Below are positions 2,898 to 45,512 of a stretch of DNA of 64,000 nucleotides, one piece after another. Made by a program: the position numbers and the translations under genes. This DNA comes from Roseomonas sp. (GTDB lineage: Bacteria; Pseudomonadota; Alphaproteobacteria; Acetobacterales; Acetobacteraceae). Location: positions 1 to 64,000 of the forward strand of contig JADCEV010000041.1 in NCBI GenBank assembly GCA_020249865.1, read 5' to 3'. Each line of letters opens with the position of its first letter. The stretch's first letter is position 1. The notes under the pieces were generated by a model, which did no database searches, was not told the origin of the DNA, and worked only from the letters and a program-made list of their open reading frames with translations.

Positions 2898-3539
2898 TCA
2901 ACCCCGCCCATACCCCGCGAAATGCTTGGCCGCTTCGGCCAATTGCGCATCCGTCAACAAGACGGGCTTCAGCCCCGCCGCCAATAGATCGAGGTATTGG
3001 CCGGCAAGATTCTCAACCTCCAAGGCCAAGGCATGCGCTGCACCCAGCGTCGCCCCCACCGCCACCACACCATGATTGGCAAGCAGTGCCGCCCGCCGTC
3101 CGGCTAAGGCACGCAGCGCATTTTCCGCCAGCGCCTGCGTGCCTGCGGTGGCGTGATCCGCGCAGGCAATCGGCCCACCCGCCAGCAGCACCATGTAATG
3201 CAAGGGCGGGATGCCCTTCCGCGCACAGGAAAGTGCGGTCGCGCGCGGCGAATGGGTATGCACCACGGCCGCCACATCAGGCCGCGCGGCGTAAATCGTC
3301 GCATGCAGGCGCCATTCCGATGAAGGCCGATGTCGTGCGCGGCCCAGCGGGCTGCCATCCAAGCCGGTAGTCACCAGATCAGCCACCGTGGTCCGCGCAT
3401 AGGGCAGGCCAGCCGGCGTGATGATGAAACCCTTGGCATCACGCACCGATACATTGCCGGATTTGGAGGGCATCATGCCCGCCTGATCAAGCGCTTGCGC
3501 GACGCGCAGAACCTCCCGCTTCGCCTCGGCGCGGGTCAC
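2898..3539 (-). CDS. Class II aldolase/adducin family protein
   Basis: SGNVSVRDAKGFIITPAG, PSSEWRLHATIYAARPDVAAVVHTHSPRATALS motif; GTG start overlaps upstream TGA (GTGA). Confidence 0.88.
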   Translation of the reverse strand: MTRAEAKREVLRVAQALDQAGMMPSKSGNVSVRDAKGFIITPAGLPYARTTVADLVTTGLDGSPLGRARHRPSSEWRLHATIYAARPDVAAVVHTHSPRATALSCARKGIPPLHYMVLLAGGPIACADHATAGTQALAENALRALAGRRAALLANHGVVAVGATLGAAHALALEVENLAGQYLDLLAAGLKPVLLTDAQLAEAAKHFAGYGRG

Positions 3540-5071
3540 ATGGTTGCTCCCAGCATCCAGGGGGCGAATTCCTGCGCGCCGAAACCAAGCGCCTCGCTTT
3601 TGGTGGGCTCGCCGGAAGCCGTGCGCAGCATCAGATCGAAAATGCGCTGGCCGCATTCCTGCACGCTTTCACCGCCTGTCAGGATGGTGCCGCAATTGAT
3701 GTCCATGTCTTCCGACAGGCGATCATACATGGTGGTATTGGTAGCAAGCTTGATGGAAGGTGCCGGCTTCATGCCAAAAACGCTGCCGCGCCCCGTGGTG
3801 AAACACACCAGATTGGCGCCACCCGCCACCTGGCCGGTCGCCCCCACCGGGTCATAGCCAGGCGTATCCATGAAAACAAAACCCTTGGCGGTGACGGGTT
3901 CGGCATAGCGATAGACCTCCACCAGATTGGTGGTGCCGGCCTTGGCCATGGCGCCGAGTGATTTTTCCAGAATGGTCGTGAGGCCGCCCGCCTTATTGCC
4001 CGGCGATGGGTTGGCATTCATCTCGGCACCTTGGCGGGCGGTGTAATCCTCCCACCAATGCATCACATCCACGAGTTTTTGGCCGACCTCGCGCGAAACG
4101 GCGCGGCGTGTCAGCAAATGTTCCGCGCCATAGGTCTCCGGGCTTTCGGACAGGATCACCGTGCCACCATGGCGCACGAGCAGATCAGATGCAGCACCAA
4201 GTGCAGGATTGGCGGTGATGCCTGAATAGCCATCCGAACCGCCGCATTGAAGTGCGACGCAAAGTTCTGATGCGGGGACGGCTTCGCGCTTGGCGGTGTT
4301 GGATTCCGTCAGCACTTCCTTCACGAAATCAATGCCCTTCATCACGGTCGCGCGCGCGCCGCTATCCTGAATATCCATGCTGCGCAGCCGACCGGTCAGG
4401 CGCTGTTCTTCCAGCATGGGGCCAAGCTGATTGACTTCACAGCCCAAGCCAATCGCAATCACATGGGAAAAATTCGCATGCCGCGCGAAGCCCGCCAGGG
4501 TGCGGCGCAGCAGCCGCAGCGGTTCATCCATGGTCATGCCGCAGCCGGTTTTATGCGTCAGCGCCACCACGCCATCCACATTGCCCCAGGCGGCCAAAGG
4601 ATCCTCGCCGGTGATGGGGTTTTTCTCAAACTGGCGTGCAATCAATTCCGCGACATGGGCGGAACAATTCACCGATGTGATAATGCCGATGTAATTGCGG
4701 GTTGCGACACGGCCATCGGCACGGCGAATACCCATGAAGCTTGCCGGCACATCCACATAATCGGTAGGCTTCGCATCCTGGCCCCAGGCGTAATCGCGCG
4801 CGAAATCGCCCATTTCGCAATTATGCGTATGCACCCAGGCGCCAGGTTCAATCGTATCCGTGGCAAAGCCGATGATCTGGCCATAGCGCTTGATGGGCTC
4901 GCCCTTCGCATGCGGGCGGATCGCGATCTTATGACCAGGCGGGATGCGCCTTTCGCCGACGCTGATGCCAGGGGCGACTTCTGTGCCGGGCGTGAGTGGA
5001 ATGCGCGCAATCACCACGCCATCACCGGGATGCAAGCGAATGACAGGCGGCAGGGTGGTGGTGCTGGACAT
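3536..5071 (-). CDS. UxaA family hydrolase / altronate (galactarate) dehydratase-like
   Basis: N-terminal SAF-like segment plus NYIGIITSVNCSAHVAELIA, GLGCEVNQLGPM, ALQCGGSDGYSGITANPALG. Confidence 0.88.
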   Translation of the reverse strand: MSSTTTLPPVIRLHPGDGVVIARIPLTPGTEVAPGISVGERRIPPGHKIAIRPHAKGEPIKRYGQIIGFATDTIEPGAWVHTHNCEMGDFARDYAWGQDAKPTDYVDVPASFMGIRRADGRVATRNYIGIITSVNCSAHVAELIARQFEKNPITGEDPLAAWGNVDGVVALTHKTGCGMTMDEPLRLLRRTLAGFARHANFSHVIAIGLGCEVNQLGPMLEEQRLTGRLRSMDIQDSGARATVMKGIDFVKEVLTESNTAKREAVPASELCVALQCGGSDGYSGITANPALGAASDLLVRHGGTVILSESPETYGAEHLLTRRAVSREVGQKLVDVMHWWEDYTARQGAEMNANPSPGNKAGGLTTILEKSLGAMAKAGTTNLVEVYRYAEPVTAKGFVFMDTPGYDPVGATGQVAGGANLVCFTTGRGSVFGMKPAPSIKLATNTTMYDRLSEDMDINCGTILTGGESVQECGQRIFDLMLRTASGEPTKSEALGFGAQEFAPWMLGATM

Positions 5072-5177
5072 GGGCGATCCCCCTTTGGCGAATGTTACGC
5101 CCCTTCTACCCCCGAGCGCGCCCCCTGCGCCACCGCCGCCCTTGCGCAAGCCTGCGTGAGGGCGCAATTAAATACCT

Positions 5178-5272
5178 GAGACACCTGGGGGAGCCCTTTT
5201 GGGGCTGAGAGGCGGGCTTCACCCGCGACCCCTGGAACCTGACCCGGTTCGGACCGGCGTAGGGAAGGGTGC
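5178..5272 (+). promoter_or_regulatory. TPP riboswitch (THI element)
   Basis: Signature CTGAGA (5205-5210) and GAACCTGACCCGGTTCGGACCGGCGTAGGGAAG (5235-5267), matching THI-box consensus; on + strand upstream of the SBP gene. Confidence 0.94.
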
Positions 5273-5371
5273 ATCGCCTGCGCGCTTACGTTTTGCCCCT
5301 ATCCGGGGCTGGCGCAGCCCAGGCCAAAGCCCCCTTCCCACGTTGGCCGACAGGAAGCGAAGGAATTGGGG

Positions 5372-6949
5372 ATGTATCGTCGTTCACTTCTCGCCACCGC
5401 TTTGGCCGCACCTTTGGCGCGCCCTGCCCTGGCCCAGCCCAGCCGCGCGCGCACGCTGCGCTTCATGCCGCAGGCCGCACTCGCCAATCTGGACCCGATC
5501 TTCAGCCCCAGCACCATCATCACGACGCATGCCTATTGCGTGTTTGATACGCTCTATGGCGCCAATCGCGCGCTGCAACCGCGCCCGCAAATGGCGGAAG
5601 GCCATAGCGTGGAAGATGACGGCAAGCGCGTGAAAATCCGCCTGCGCGATGGCCTGCGCTGGCATGATGGTGAGCCCGTGCGCGCCGCCGATTGCGTGGC
5701 GAGCATCCGGCGCTGGGCGAGCCGCGATGGCTTTGGCCAAATCCTGATGCGCGCCACCGCCGAGCTTTCCGCCGCCGATGATCGCACCATCGAATTCCGC
5801 CTGCATCGGCGCTTTCCTGCGCTGTTTGATGCCTTGGCCAAACCCGGTGCGTCACCCTGCTTCATGATGCCGGAACGCATTGCGAATAATCCTGGCGATC
5901 GGTCGCTTGGGCTGGAACACATGATCGGCAGCGGGCCGTGGCGCTTTATTGCCAATGAATACGTGCAAGGTGCCCGCAGCCATTATGCGCGCAATGACGA
6001 TTACGTGCCGCGCGATGAACCGGCCGAAGCTGCCTCAGGCGGCAAGCGCGTGTATCTTGATCGGCTGGAGATGATCTGGATTCCGGATGGCGGCACGGCG
6101 GCGGCGGCACTCCGCACCGGGGAAATTGACTGGATCGAATACCCGCTGCCCGATCTGGTGCCGGTGCTGGAACGGGACCGGAATACGCAGACACAGATTT
6201 ATGACCCGAACGGGTTTTTGGGTTTTCTGCGCTTCAATCATCTGCATGCGCCTTTCAATGATGTGCGGGTGCGCCGCGCCATTCGTGATGTGATTGTGCA
6301 ATCGGATTTCATGTCGGCGGTGGCGCTGCCAGGTGACTGGCAGGAATGCCACGCCATGTTCCCCTGCGGCCTGCCAGGCGTGGTGGAATTCCCGCCCGCC
6401 GCGCGCGGTGAAGCAGCGATGGAGCGCGCCCGCGCCGCGCTGCGCGAAGCCGGCTATGCCGGGGAGCCGATCATCCACATCAACCCGAGCGATTTTCCTG
6501 CCGTGACGCAGCAGGGCCGCCTGACGGTAGAATTGATGCGCAGGCTTGGCGTGAATATGCAGCCGATTGAATCAGATTGGGCAAGCATTCTGGCGCGGCG
6601 CAATAACCGCAACCCGCCGGCGCAAGGCGGCTGGCATTTGCACAATACCAATGGCCCGGCGGCGACCATCGCCAATCCCGCCGTCAGCTTCGCCATTCGT
6701 ATGAATGGGCAAGCCGCCTGGCCCGGCTGGCCAACAGATGCGGATGCGGAAGCGCAGGTGGAAGCCTGGATCAATGCCGATGATCAGGCGGCGCAGGATG
6801 CGGCGATGCGGCGCTTGCAGGAAATTAGCTGGGAATCGCTGCCCTTCGCGCCGACAGGTTTATTCCGGCTACGCACAGCCTTCCGGCGCGACCTGACAGG
6901 CGTTTTGCAGGGGCCGAATCCCTTTCTATGGAATCTGCGGCGGGCGTGA
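5372..6949 (+). CDS. ABC transporter substrate-binding protein, family 5 (peptide/nickel/opine-type)
   Basis: Signal peptide MYRRSLLATALAAPLARPALAQ; FDTLYGANRALQPRPQMAEGHSVEDDGKRVKIRLRDGLRWHDGEPVRAADC; SD AAGGAA 6 nt before ATG 5372 (track used in-frame TTG 5366). Confidence 0.9.
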   Translation: MYRRSLLATALAAPLARPALAQPSRARTLRFMPQAALANLDPIFSPSTIITTHAYCVFDTLYGANRALQPRPQMAEGHSVEDDGKRVKIRLRDGLRWHDGEPVRAADCVASIRRWASRDGFGQILMRATAELSAADDRTIEFRLHRRFPALFDALAKPGASPCFMMPERIANNPGDRSLGLEHMIGSGPWRFIANEYVQGARSHYARNDDYVPRDEPAEAASGGKRVYLDRLEMIWIPDGGTAAAALRTGEIDWIEYPLPDLVPVLERDRNTQTQIYDPNGFLGFLRFNHLHAPFNDVRVRRAIRDVIVQSDFMSAVALPGDWQECHAMFPCGLPGVVEFPPAARGEAAMERARAALREAGYAGEPIIHINPSDFPAVTQQGRLTVELMRRLGVNMQPIESDWASILARRNNRNPPAQGGWHLHNTNGPAATIANPAVSFAIRMNGQAAWPGWPTDADAEAQVEAWINADDQAAQDAAMRRLQEISWESLPFAPTGLFRLRTAFRRDLTGVLQGPNPFLWNLRRA

Positions 6950-40872: not shown

Positions 40873-41949
40873 TTACGGCATCGCGACATCAATGCCCTGA
40901 TAGAAGTAGTTCTGCGCGCGGATTTCATCATCCGAAAGGCGCCGGCCGGCCGGGAGCACCACAGTACCATCCTGGCGCGTGATCGGGCCTTCAAAGGGAT
41001 GCAGCGTGCCGGCGGCGATGGCGTCGCGGATGCGCGTTGCCTCGCTCACTTCCTCGGGCGTCATATTGGTGAAGGGGGCCATGCGGAACATGCCGCTGCC
41101 AAGCCCACCCCAGGTATCCGTCGGGCGCCAGGTGCCATCCAGCACGGCCCTCGCACGTTCGGCATAATAATCGCCCCAGTTGTTCACGCTGCTGGTCAGA
41201 TGGGCGCGCGGGGCGAAGCGCGTCATGTCCGATGCTTGGCCAAAGCCGAAAATGCCGCGCTGTTCGGCCAATTGCAGTGGCGCCGGGCCATCGGTGTGGC
41301 TGCACAGCACATCACAGCCCTGGTCAATCAGGGCGCGGGCCGCATCAGCCTCACGCGCCGGGTTCGACCAGGCATTCACCCACACAACGCGCACCTTCAT
41401 GGAAGGGTCCACAGACCAGGCGCCGCGCATGACGGTATTGATGGCGCTGATCACTTCCGGCACCGGGAAGGTGGCAACATAGCCGATGGTCTTGGAACGG
41501 GACTTGCGCGCGGCGATCACGCCCTGGATGTAGCGGCCTTCATAGAAGCGGGCATTGTAGATCGCCATATTCGGCAGCGTTGTCGGACCCGTCGCGTTTT
41601 CGAAGAACACGCCCGGATGCTGCGGCGCCATGCGCTGCGTCGGGGCGAAATAGGAAAAGCTGGTGGTGAAGATCAGCCGATGGCCGGTGCGGACAAGCTG
41701 CGTCACCACACGGTCGAAATCGGGCGGGGCCACGGATTCGACCGTGGTGGCATTGACGCGGTCGCCCAGTACCTCGGCCATGCGGCGGCGGCCCTGGTCA
41801 TGCATATGCGACCAGCCGAAATCGCCGACCGGCCCGATCAGGACGACGCCGACGCTAAGGCGCGACTGCGCTTCGGCCTGCTGACCAGCCAGCGCAGCGC
41901 CGGCAAGACCGGCAGAGCCGGCCATAAGATGACGACGGGTGATGTTCAT
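40873..41949 (-). CDS. BMP family ABC transporter substrate-binding protein (nucleoside-type)
   Basis: SVGVVLIGPVGDFGWSHMHDQGRRRMAEVLGDRV, GVFFENATGPTTLPNMAIYNARFYEGRYIQGVIAARKSRSKTIGYVATFPVPEV. Confidence 0.95.
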   Translation of the reverse strand: MNITRRHLMAGSAGLAGAALAGQQAEAQSRLSVGVVLIGPVGDFGWSHMHDQGRRRMAEVLGDRVNATTVESVAPPDFDRVVTQLVRTGHRLIFTTSFSYFAPTQRMAPQHPGVFFENATGPTTLPNMAIYNARFYEGRYIQGVIAARKSRSKTIGYVATFPVPEVISAINTVMRGAWSVDPSMKVRVVWVNAWSNPAREADAARALIDQGCDVLCSHTDGPAPLQLAEQRGIFGFGQASDMTRFAPRAHLTSSVNNWGDYYAERARAVLDGTWRPTDTWGGLGSGMFRMAPFTNMTPEEVSEATRIRDAIAAGTLHPFEGPITRQDGTVVLPAGRRLSDDEIRAQNYFYQGIDVAMP

Positions 41950-42007
41950 GAAGCTCTCCCTGAAAAGCGGTTTGGGTTAAGCAAATTTAATACCAAGACG
42001 GAAGGGG

Positions 42008-42925
42008 CTATCTGTCAGGCACGAAGGGCACGCCGAGGGAAGCCGGCCCCGCCGCCCCGCCGCGCCTTGCCCGCATAATGAGCACGAGTACCAGGATCGT
42101 GATCAGATAAGGCAAGGCCGCCAGAAACTGCGATGGCAGCGGCACGCCGGCCGATTGCGCATGCAATTGCAGGATGGTCAGTGCGCCAAACAGATAGGCG
42201 CCGATCATCGCCCTGAAGGGCAGCCAGGAGGCAAAAACCACGATGGCCAGTGCAATCCAGCCCCGCCCTGCGGTCATACCGCTGGTCCAGAAGGGCGTCA
42301 GGACCAAGGACATATAAGCCCCCGCCAGCCCTGCACAGCCGCCGCCGAACAGGATGGCGAGCAGGCGGATGCGCCGCACCGGATAGCCAAGCGCATGCGC
42401 TGCTGCGTGGTTTTCACCAACCGCGCGCAAAACCAGCCCGGCGCGGCTTTTGGTGAGGAACCACCAGACGGCAACCACCAACGCCACCGAGGCATAGACA
42501 AAGGGGTCCTGGCGGAACAGCAGCGGTCCGAGGAAAGGAATTTCGGACAGCCAAGGGATCTCTATCTTGCCGATGCCGGCGCGCTGCACGCCGACAAAGG
42601 GCGCGCCGATCACGCCCGAAAGCCCAAGCCCCAGAATGGCCAAGGCGAGCCCCGCCGCGACCTGATTGGCGGCAAGGCCCAAGACAAGTGCGGCAAACAC
42701 CAGCGACAGCGCCATGCCAGCCAGCACCGCCACCAGCACGCCAAAACTGGAAGACCCGGTGGCGATGGCAGCCGCAATACCGGCGGCAGCGCCGATGACC
42801 ATCATGCCCTCCACGCCCAGGTTCAAGACGCCGGCGCGTTCCACCACCAATTCGCCAATCGCCGCAATCAGCAGCGGCGTTGAAGCCGTGATGATGGTCA
42901 GGATGATGGCTTCGAATAGCGTCAT
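42008..42925 (-). CDS. ABC transporter permease (nucleoside uptake, BMP-associated)
   Basis: STPLLIAAIGELVVERAGVLNLGVEGMMVIGA, NHAAAHALGYPVRRIRLLAILFGGGCAGLAGAYMSL. Confidence 0.94.
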   Translation of the reverse strand: MTLFEAIILTIITASTPLLIAAIGELVVERAGVLNLGVEGMMVIGAAAGIAAAIATGSSSFGVLVAVLAGMALSLVFAALVLGLAANQVAAGLALAILGLGLSGVIGAPFVGVQRAGIGKIEIPWLSEIPFLGPLLFRQDPFVYASVALVVAVWWFLTKSRAGLVLRAVGENHAAAHALGYPVRRIRLLAILFGGGCAGLAGAYMSLVLTPFWTSGMTAGRGWIALAIVVFASWLPFRAMIGAYLFGALTILQLHAQSAGVPLPSQFLAALPYLITILVLVLIMRARRGGAAGPASLGVPFVPDR

Positions 42926-43995
42926 GCGGCGGCACCCCGCAGCAGGCGGAAGCGATACAAAAGCATACTATCGCAGACCAGCACGAAGAATAGCAAAAGC
43001 CCTTGCAGCACGCGTGTGGCATCCAAAGGCAGGCGCAGCATGATTTGCGCATTCTCGCCACCGATGAAGGTGATGGCGATGAAGATGCCGGCGAAGAGAC
43101 AGCCAATGGGATTAAGCCGCCCGAGGAAGGCAACAATGATGGCGGTGAAGCCATAGCCAGGTGAAATGCCGGGCTGCAATTGTTTGACCGTGCCCGCGGC
43201 TTCCAGCACACCGGCAAGCCCGGCCAGCGCGCCCGAGATCATGAAAACCGTGATGATCAAACGGGTTTCGGAAAACCCGGCAAAGCGCGCGGCGCGTGGT
43301 GCTTCACCCACCAGGCGAATTTCAAACCCCTTCAGCGTGCGCCCCATCAGCAGCATGAAGGCAAACACAACGGCGATCATGATCGGCGTGCCGATATTGA
43401 GCCGCCCGTCCGCCATCAGCAGCGGCAGCGTCGCTTCTGCTTCGAACACCACGCTATTGGGCATGTTGAAGCCGGCCGGGTCGCGCCAGGGGCCGCGCAC
43501 CAGGTAATCCAGCAGCAATTCCGCGACATAAACCAGCATCAGGCTGGTGAGAATCTCATTGGCGCCGAAATGCGTGCGCAGCAATGCCGGGATCAGCGCG
43601 AAACAGGCGCCGGCCATGGCGCCTGCCAGCAGCATCACCGGCAAAAGCCACGGGCCTTGCGTGCTGCCATGGGTGATGATGGCGACATAACCACCCGCCA
43701 TGGCGCCGAACAGGAATTGCCCCTCGGCGCCGATATTCCAGACCTTGGCGCGATAACAAACCGCAAGCCCCACCGCGATCAGCACCAGCGGTGTCGCCTT
43801 CACCGCCACTTCCTGCAAGCCCCAGGAATCCGAGAGCGGATCAAGGAAATAGGTTTGCAGCGCCGCCACCGGATCCTTGCCGAGCAGCGCAAACATGATG
43901 GCCGCCGATATCATGGTCAGCGCCACCGCAATCATTGGGGAGATCAGCATCAGGCTGATTGGCGTTTCGCTGCGCCTTTCCATAACCAGTCTCAT
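42922..43995 (-). CDS. ABC transporter permease (nucleoside uptake, BMP-associated)
   Basis: YRAKVWNIGAEGQFLFGAMAGGYVAI, GANEILTSLMLVYVAELLLDYLVRGPWRDPAGFN; ATGA overlap with ATPase gene. Confidence 0.93.
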   Translation of the reverse strand: MRLVMERRSETPISLMLISPMIAVALTMISAAIMFALLGKDPVAALQTYFLDPLSDSWGLQEVAVKATPLVLIAVGLAVCYRAKVWNIGAEGQFLFGAMAGGYVAIITHGSTQGPWLLPVMLLAGAMAGACFALIPALLRTHFGANEILTSLMLVYVAELLLDYLVRGPWRDPAGFNMPNSVVFEAEATLPLLMADGRLNIGTPIMIAVVFAFMLLMGRTLKGFEIRLVGEAPRAARFAGFSETRLIITVFMISGALAGLAGVLEAAGTVKQLQPGISPGYGFTAIIVAFLGRLNPIGCLFAGIFIAITFIGGENAQIMLRLPLDATRVLQGLLLFFVLVCDSMLLYRFRLLRGAAA

Positions 43996-45512
43996 CACGC
44001 CGCCATCCCCGCCCCGCCCATCAATAGGCCGAGCGATTCTCGAGTGGCTTGCGAAGTTGGCATGGCAGGCGAAAGCCGGCCCATGAAAATGACGCAAAGC
44101 CGGTCTGAGATTTCCAGCAGCTCATCCAAATCCTGGCTGATCACCAGAACAGCGCTGCCCGCGCGCGCCAGATCCATCAGCGCCTGGCGAATGGTGGAAG
44201 CGGCACCCGCATCCACGCCCCAGCTTGGCTGCGCCACGACCAAAAGGCCGGGGCGACGCGCGATTTCGCGGCCAATGACGAATTTCTGCAAATTCCCGCC
44301 GGATAGCGCGCGGGCTTCCGGATCGGCGGGGCCTTTGCGTACGTCAAAGGCGCGCACGACTTTTCCAACGAAGTCCGTCAGCTTGGCGCGATCCACCAGG
44401 CCATGGCGCAAAAAACCATTCGTGGCATGGCCCGAGAGCAGCGCGTTTTCCGTGAGCCGCATGGCAGGCGCCGCGCCATGGCCAAGCCGTTCTTCCGGCA
44501 CAAAGGCGGCACCACGCCGGCGGCGTTCATTGATGCCGGCAAGGCCAACCGCGACACCATCCATGACAATGGCCGCGTCATGCGGCGCCAATTCTTCGCC
44601 GCTGAGGGCTGCAAAAAGCTCATCCTGGCCATTGCCGGCGACGCCCGCGATGCCCAGAACCTCACCGGCGCGGAGTTCCAGGCTGATCCTGTCCAGCGCA
44701 ATGCCATGCGCGTGAAGCGGCGGGAGTGACAGTGCCGAGACCGCCAGCCGCACCGGGCCTTGCGCTTCAATCACATCATGACGGATGGGCACTACATCAC
44801 CGCCCATCATCATGCGCGCGAGGCTTGCCGCGGTTTCCGCGCGCGGGTCGCAATGCGCCACCACTTGCCCGCCGCGCAGAATGGTCGCGGCTTCGCAAAT
44901 GCGCCGCACTTCTTCCAGTTTGTGGGAAATGTAGAGCACCGAACGCCCCTCGGCGCGCAGCCGGGCGAGCGTCGCAAAAAGCCCCTCGGCTTCCTGAGGG
45001 GTGAGTACGGAAGTGGGTTCATCAAGGATCAGCAGGCTTGGGTCCTGCATCAGGCAGCGCATGATCTCCACGCGCTGGCGTTCACCCACGGAAAGCCGCC
45101 AGACTTCGCGCCTGGGATCAAGCGGCAGGCCATAGGCGCGGCTGGTTTCGGCAAGGCGTTCGGCGATCTCTTCCAAGGCGCCCGCGCCATCAAGCGCGAG
45201 GGCGACATTTTCCGCGACCGTCAGCGCCTCAAACAATGAGAAATGCTGAAACACCATGCCTATGCCCAACGCGCGGGCGGCGCGGGGGCTTTCCACCTGA
45301 ACCGGCGCGCCACGCCAGACCAGCCGGCCCGCATCCGGGCGCAGCAGGCCATAGATGATTTTGACGAGCGTGGATTTGCCGGCGCCATTTTCACCAAGCA
45401 GGGCATGGATTTCGCCCGGCGCCACTTTCAGGTCCACGGCGTTATTGGCCACCAGCGCGCCGAAGCGCTTGGTAATGCCCTCAGCGGCCAAAAGCGGGGG
45501 GGAAGCCTGCAT
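43995..45512 (-). CDS. ABC transporter ATP-binding protein (tandem ATPase, BMP-associated)
   Basis: [70 protein letters not shown], second ATPase half. Confidence 0.96.

Follow-up and report, generated by a model that had tools for sequence, protein, structure and literature searches.

A conserved TPP riboswitch upstream of a solitary family-5 substrate-binding protein suggests a route for vitamin B1 precursor capture in Neoroseomonas

Results

A full-length TPP riboswitch lies upstream of the SBP gene

The window, i.e. the whole 64-kb stretch of DNA that was analysed, carries a TPP riboswitch aptamer (THI element; positions 5177-5283, + strand) followed on the same strand by a gene encoding a 525-aa family-5 (cluster C) substrate-binding protein (SBP; 5372-6949, + strand). 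A covariance-model search of the window with RF00059 returned a full-length match (model positions 1-105 of 105) that scored 70.3 bits against a gathering threshold of 54.3, with an E-value of 8.8e-12. The aptamer ends 88 nt before the ATG at 5372, which confirms the first-pass annotation, where a THI element had been placed about 100 nt upstream of the binding-protein gene. When the entire assembly (3.65 Mb in 154 contigs, rated 100% complete) was searched with the covariance model, this was the single TPP riboswitch found. Among the orthologous aptamers, the core (CUGAGA and GAACCUGA.CCGG) was invariant or almost so and helices P1 to P5 were present; in addition, an alignment of 23 orthologous aptamers revealed compensatory changes at 4 of 24 predicted pairs. 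The aptamer is an ordinary member of RF00059.

Upstream of the riboswitch, a galactarate/altronate dehydratase-like gene (3536-5167, - strand) is oriented divergently, and the next gene downstream of the SBP is EipB-like (PF08904; 6956-7879, - strand). No DppB or DppC homologue was found within the 64-kb window, and the earlier description of an SBP that has no permease or ATPase gene beside it and is followed by eipB on the opposite strand therefore holds. Likewise, no permease adjoins the SBP orthologues in any genus, and a separate dpp-like set lies about 5.6 kb from the orthologue at one locus only (L096). No neighbour gene was kept across genera among the loci examined; the orthologue neighbours are unrelated and, as named by reading their sequences, presumably include Maf-like and HemE/HemH proteins, a phosphoglycerate kinase-like protein, NhaA and a LysR-type regulator. 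The conserved unit is the riboswitch and the SBP, and nothing more.

Some other transport genes were seen in passing. The window contains a complete BMP-family (nucleoside-type) ABC importer cluster (40873-45512, - strand), comprising a binding protein, two permeases and an ATPase, which has no riboswitch. At one locus (L134, G225:C19, downstream of position 6621), a second, distant DppA-like family-5 SBP directly follows the riboswitch-controlled SBP on the same strand, a tandem that was not seen in other genera.

The SBP has an ordinary family-5 fold and lacks the peptide-anchoring aspartate of DppA

PF00496 (E = 1.6e-57) is the only Pfam family of the SBP, and its N-terminus carries an RR-containing export signal (MYRRSLLATALA...). 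The start was taken at the ATG at 5372 because most orthologues align from there. An AlphaFold2 model (mean pLDDT 91, pTM 0.89) matched family-5 SBPs in Foldseek, in agreement with the cluster C fold. The closest solved structure is PDB 8vdx, a family-5 SBP from Bordetella bronchiseptica RB50 with the same fold (phmmer E = 3.7e-109, 38% identity), for which the depositors' title gives neither ligand nor function; the further PDB matches are opine-, glutathione-, sialic-acid-, nickel- and dipeptide-binding members of the family. Compared with Escherichia coli DppA, the model shares the cluster C fold (TM-score 0.78-0.81 to 1dpp), but sequence identity is only about 19% and the SBP has no surrounding dpp operon. 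Asp436 of DppA (precursor numbering; Asp408 in the mature protein) anchors the peptide N-terminus. This residue is replaced in the SBP, and none of 30 aligned subfamily members has an aspartate at this column. Residues including W190, Y257, Y277, N427 and W487 are fixed in the orthologue clade and not in the paralogues. As modelled, the SBP is of ordinary family-5 fold.

The riboswitch-SBP pair is conserved in Neoroseomonas and recurs across Acetobacteraceae

We examined a genus sample of 36 Neoroseomonas genomes and a family sample of 250 Acetobacteraceae genomes. An SBP orthologue (72-98% identity) was found in all 36 Neoroseomonas genomes and a TPP riboswitch in 35 of them. In every one of the 34 genomes that had both on one contig, the riboswitch immediately preceded the SBP in the same orientation; the other two are one genome with the elements at the ends of different contigs (G006) and one with the gene cut by a contig end (G019). 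Four Neoroseomonas genomes also carry a second riboswitch about 450 bp before their ThiC match. In the family sample, orthologues (cut-off, E at most 1e-190) were present in 37 of the 250 genomes, distributed over 12 genera, and 29 of the 37 had an upstream riboswitch, counting two in which the motif was present with a score under gathering. The THI element thus generally accompanies the orthologues across Acetobacteraceae, the reverse of the pattern that would have refuted the first-pass annotation. Furthermore, in an independent collection the motif preceded every orthologue of at least 72% identity with enough upstream sequence, and it preceded none of 12 more distant paralogues (37-46% identity). 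Because the pair recurs in 34 of 34 Neoroseomonas genomes and, among the 12 orthologue-bearing genera of the family, in the majority, we conclude that the pairing is not due to chance.

No riboswitch was recognisable at the remaining eight of the 37 orthologues using a gathering-level scan and a motif search. Weak detection was rejected as the cause at five of these loci, where cmscan was empty even at E up to 1; the assignment of the other three is based on the gathering-level scan and motif search. In a tree of 87 proteins, the 49 orthologues formed one clade with an SH-aLRT support of 100, and the riboswitch-less orthologues are nested inside it and therefore represent losses. All eight losses occurred in genomes keeping ThiC, and all 11 orthologue-bearing genomes without ThiC kept the switch on the SBP as their only TPP riboswitch. 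The chance probability of this split is approximately 0.04 by a hypergeometric calculation that ignores kinship, and the link between riboswitch loss and ThiC retention is suggestive only. At two of the riboswitch-less loci (L140 and L141, in G265 and G297), the orthologue is immediately followed by another, distant SBP5 gene in the opposite orientation.

Thiamine gene content predicts a requirement for HMP

ThiC makes the pyrimidine precursor. It was absent from the genome of the window and from 32 of the 36 Neoroseomonas genomes, including one assembled as a single contig. ThiG was present in all 36 genomes, thiS adjoins thiG in the genome of the window, and E. coli queries detected ThiD (45% identity), ThiL (43%) and ThiE (32%) there. 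With an intact thiazole branch and intact final steps but a broken pyrimidine branch, the organism is a predicted HMP auxotroph and appears, by its gene content within the sensitivity of these searches, to need the pyrimidine moiety (HMP) from outside. When ThiX, ThiY and PnuT served as tblastn queries against the 36 Neoroseomonas genomes, the matches listed were generic permeases and weak NMT1-like proteins of 36% identity or less, and no ThiY or PnuT orthologue was among them.

Thiamine pyrophosphokinase (PF04263) was found in none of the 36 genomes, and BLAST with the E. coli sequences of ThiM and ThiK, the latter from a diverse family whose members such a search may miss, gave no match in the genome of the window. 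With neither thiamine pyrophosphokinase nor a ThiK match, imported thiamine would not be directly phosphorylated by known routes. A TenA-family protein is encoded in the genome of the window; in principle it could free HMP from imported thiamine, which makes thiamine a less likely but conceivable cargo.

We also considered the SBP as a simple replacement for ThiC and rejected this, as 26 of the 37 orthologue-bearing genomes keep ThiC. A second candidate that we rejected was a solitary SBP5 paralogue (47% identity) beside thiSG in the genome of the window (L126, G000:C29:6104-9543). It lacks a riboswitch, and the gene after it is phosphotriesterase-like; it was therefore not retained as a B1 transporter. 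Proximity of an SBP to thiG, again with no riboswitch, was observed in several Neoroseomonas genomes.

In ThiC-less relatives that lack this SBP, the riboswitch precedes other uptake genes

ThiC-less Acetobacteraceae without the SBP place their riboswitch in front of other genes, whose families we assigned by reading the sequences. At four loci (L158, L162, L165 and L168) it precedes what we take to be ATPase-permease-ThiY operons. In other such relatives it lies before a presumed TonB receptor and a ThiY-like protein (L159, L160 and L167), and in a third arrangement before a TonB receptor and what we take to be a PnuT-like protein (L161 and L164). With the switch on ThiXYZ, ThiY or PnuT in these relatives, the family-5 SBP occupies the regulatory position of a canonical HMP importer. 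The SBP of Neoroseomonas thus resembles ThiXYZ, whose ThiY is an NMT1-type HMP-binding protein, in its TPP-riboswitch control; however, ThiY comes from a different SBP family and has its own permease and ATPase, whereas the SBP here is solitary.

Predicted leader folds are compatible with translational control

The leader between the aptamer and the start codon (5284-5371, + strand) was folded as the putative expression platform, for which we propose translational control. It contains a C-rich tract (CCCCCTTCCC at 5330-5339, + strand; 5330-5349 in the full-leader fold) with predicted alternative pairings and, before the ATG at 5372, a purine-rich Shine-Dalgarno region (GGAAGCGAAGGAATTGGGG, 5353-5371, + strand). 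In the minimum free energy fold of the full leader (z = -1.86), the C-rich tract is predicted to pair with the 3' half of the aptamer and to break the aptamer. In the fold of the post-aptamer leader alone, it pairs with the Shine-Dalgarno region, and this fold was no more stable than shuffled sequences (z = 0.44). The predicted aptamer-leader duplex in the window reached -37.1 kcal/mol, whereas shuffled sequences averaged -25.8 kcal/mol (p < 0.01). A family-wide aptamer-leader anti-structure was rejected (p = 0.57 versus shuffles), the pairing being seen in the window's own lineage only. Pairing between the Shine-Dalgarno region and the leader exceeded that of shuffles when 41 orthologues, which are related sequences, were pooled (Wilcoxon p = 8e-6), and for the window alone it was not above its shuffles. 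Transcription termination was also considered and rejected; one weak terminator-like site was detected, with 0.3 expected by chance, and there was no convincing intrinsic terminator.

These folds suggest that the leader can adopt alternative structures, an arrangement that we propose to act as a translational OFF switch. At low TPP, the C-rich tract would lie on the 3' half of the aptamer, leaving the ribosome-binding site free for the SBP to be made. When TPP is plentiful, TPP would hold the aptamer, the C-rich tract would be released and the ribosome-binding site would be covered. We infer this ON/OFF mechanism from the predicted structures.

SBP paralogues share Opp/Dpp-type permeases

Approximately 23 relatives of the SBP are encoded in its own 3.65-Mb genome. 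Among five paralogue loci inspected there, four were solitary. At the fifth (L130, G000:C82), genes for DppB (40% identity), DppC (38%) and, cut off by the contig end, the first part of DppD come after a pair of SBP paralogues (45% and 41%). At six loci in Roseomonas relatives, a single DppBCDF set accompanies three or four tandem SBPs from the same subfamily, and paralogues with a common permease set were also found at a further locus (L110). Tandem subfamily SBPs on single DppBCDF sets indicate that permease sharing is normal in this subfamily. A precedent is MppA of E. coli, an orphan OppA-like SBP served by the Opp permease (PMC10924461, PMC5736914). MppA is a solitary family-5 SBP that gives narrow specificity to a remote permease, and by analogy we propose the same here; the two differ in that the ligands of MppA are murein peptides and these papers do not present it as riboswitch-controlled (PMC10924461, PMC5736914), while the SBP does not have the peptide-anchoring aspartate of DppA. 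With the gene solitary in every genus and paralogues sharing one DppBC(D) set in the same genome, it is plausible that the SBP borrows a permease encoded elsewhere. The DppBCD set of L130 is a candidate partner, a link suggested by paralogy.

Discussion

Capture of a pyrimidine-side B1 precursor by the SBP

Taken together, these results make it very likely that the SBP has a role in B1 supply. Our preferred explanation, to which we assign a probability only slightly better than even (about 0.5), is that this solitary, TPP-repressed family-5 SBP captures a pyrimidine-side B1 precursor and docks on an Opp/Dpp-type permease encoded elsewhere. The stricter version, in which the protein is dedicated to an HMP-class B1 vitamer and serves, under riboswitch control, as a specificity module that a shared Opp-type permease can use, falls somewhat short of even odds. 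The original suggestion had been capture of thiamine or a thiamine precursor; genome context upholds the B1 link and narrows the choice, with an HMP-class cargo appearing likelier than thiamine because the genome lacks ThiC and the searches detected neither a thiamine kinase nor a pyrophosphokinase. Judged from gene content, HMP-class cargo would be the best single guess, and in this freshwater Neoroseomonas, a predicted HMP auxotroph, the SBP is probably the route for catching the missing pyrimidine half. Counted against our explanation are the 26 of 37 orthologue genomes that keep ThiC, and the eight ThiC-bearing ones that have no switch.

In this explanation, the cargo would most likely be HMP itself, or else an HMP-related compound or a product of thiamine degradation within reach of TenA and ThiD. 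Once exported, the SBP would hand its ligand over to an Opp/Dpp-type permease from another locus, in the manner of MppA and Opp. Inside the cell, ThiD would phosphorylate HMP, ThiE would join the product to the thiazole phosphate made through ThiG, and ThiL would make TPP. TPP would then control the binding protein alone and not the transporter.

Alternative explanations

The strongest competitor is capture of thiamine itself, or of its phosphates TMP and TPP, in place of a pyrimidine precursor. Thiamine transporters, ThiBPQ for example, are also among the targets of TPP riboswitches; moreover, TenA could hydrolyse imported thiamine to HMP and ThiL could use imported TMP. Yet thiamine pyrophosphokinase occurs in 0 of 36 genomes and ThiK gave no match, which leaves no direct phosphorylation by a known route, and the step missing from the pathway is ThiC, i.e. 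the supply of HMP. We consider this alternative a real but clearly less probable one.

Ligands of family-5 proteins are very varied (peptides, nickel chelates, glutathione, sialic acid and opines), and paralogues 45-50% identical to the SBP have no assigned ligand, in keeping with capture of a compound other than a B1 vitamer (a peptide, an opine or a sulfur source) whose uptake is merely raised at low TPP. This we regard as improbable, since several genera have kept the riboswitch, ThiC-less genomes have no other TPP switch, and the peptide-anchoring aspartate of DppA is absent.

It is more doubtful still that the SBP works without a permease, e.g. as a periplasmic reservoir or a sensor input. 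An adjacent permease is missing in every genus and many solitary SBPs of these genomes have no known partner; however, an HMP auxotroph must import the compound, and shared permeases are established for orphan family-5 SBPs, as for MppA on Opp (PMC10924461, PMC5736914). Finally, ThiC has been lost from the genome of the window and the neighbours of the SBP differ from genus to genus, as might be expected if the riboswitch were a relic of a lost thi operon that now stands by chance before an unrelated gene, but this is very unlikely, as aptamer and linkage are kept over 58-98% protein identity while other neighbours change, ThiC-bearing Neoroseomonas carry a separate riboswitch upstream of ThiC, and the aptamer shows compensatory changes.

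Relation to known B1 transport systems

Among marine microbes, B1 auxotrophy is described as most often taking the form of HMP auxotrophy (PMC11452348). Like the SBP in its predicted auxotroph, the SAR11 sodium:solute symporter ThiV is the one candidate for HMP uptake linked to a TPP riboswitch in an organism that needs external HMP; ThiV, however, is a complete membrane symporter (PMC11452348), and the SBP is a binding protein only. The main text of Sun et al. gives 19 transporter orthologue groups under TPP control and makes no mention there of oligopeptide or dipeptide systems (PMC3766115). In a search of freely accessible papers, none linking a family-5 SBP with a TPP riboswitch was found. 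What is new here is likely the combination of the two and the role that this combination may have.

HMP importers are known for some lineages only, and the SBP is a candidate importer component, open to testing, in a group of Acetobacteraceae that includes genomes from fresh water and soil and in which ThiC is frequently lost; in ThiC-less members of this group, it would be the only TPP-regulated gene. Were our preferred explanation to hold, one more protein family would join the B1 uptake repertoire, the many solitary family-5 SBPs of these genomes would gain an initial link to function, and the system would be a clear example of a vitamin regulating the specificity module instead of the complete transporter. 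As a separate observation, the riboswitch-controlled TonB-dependent receptors in the relatives without the SBP (L159, L160, L161, L164 and L167) are a likely outer-membrane route for B1.
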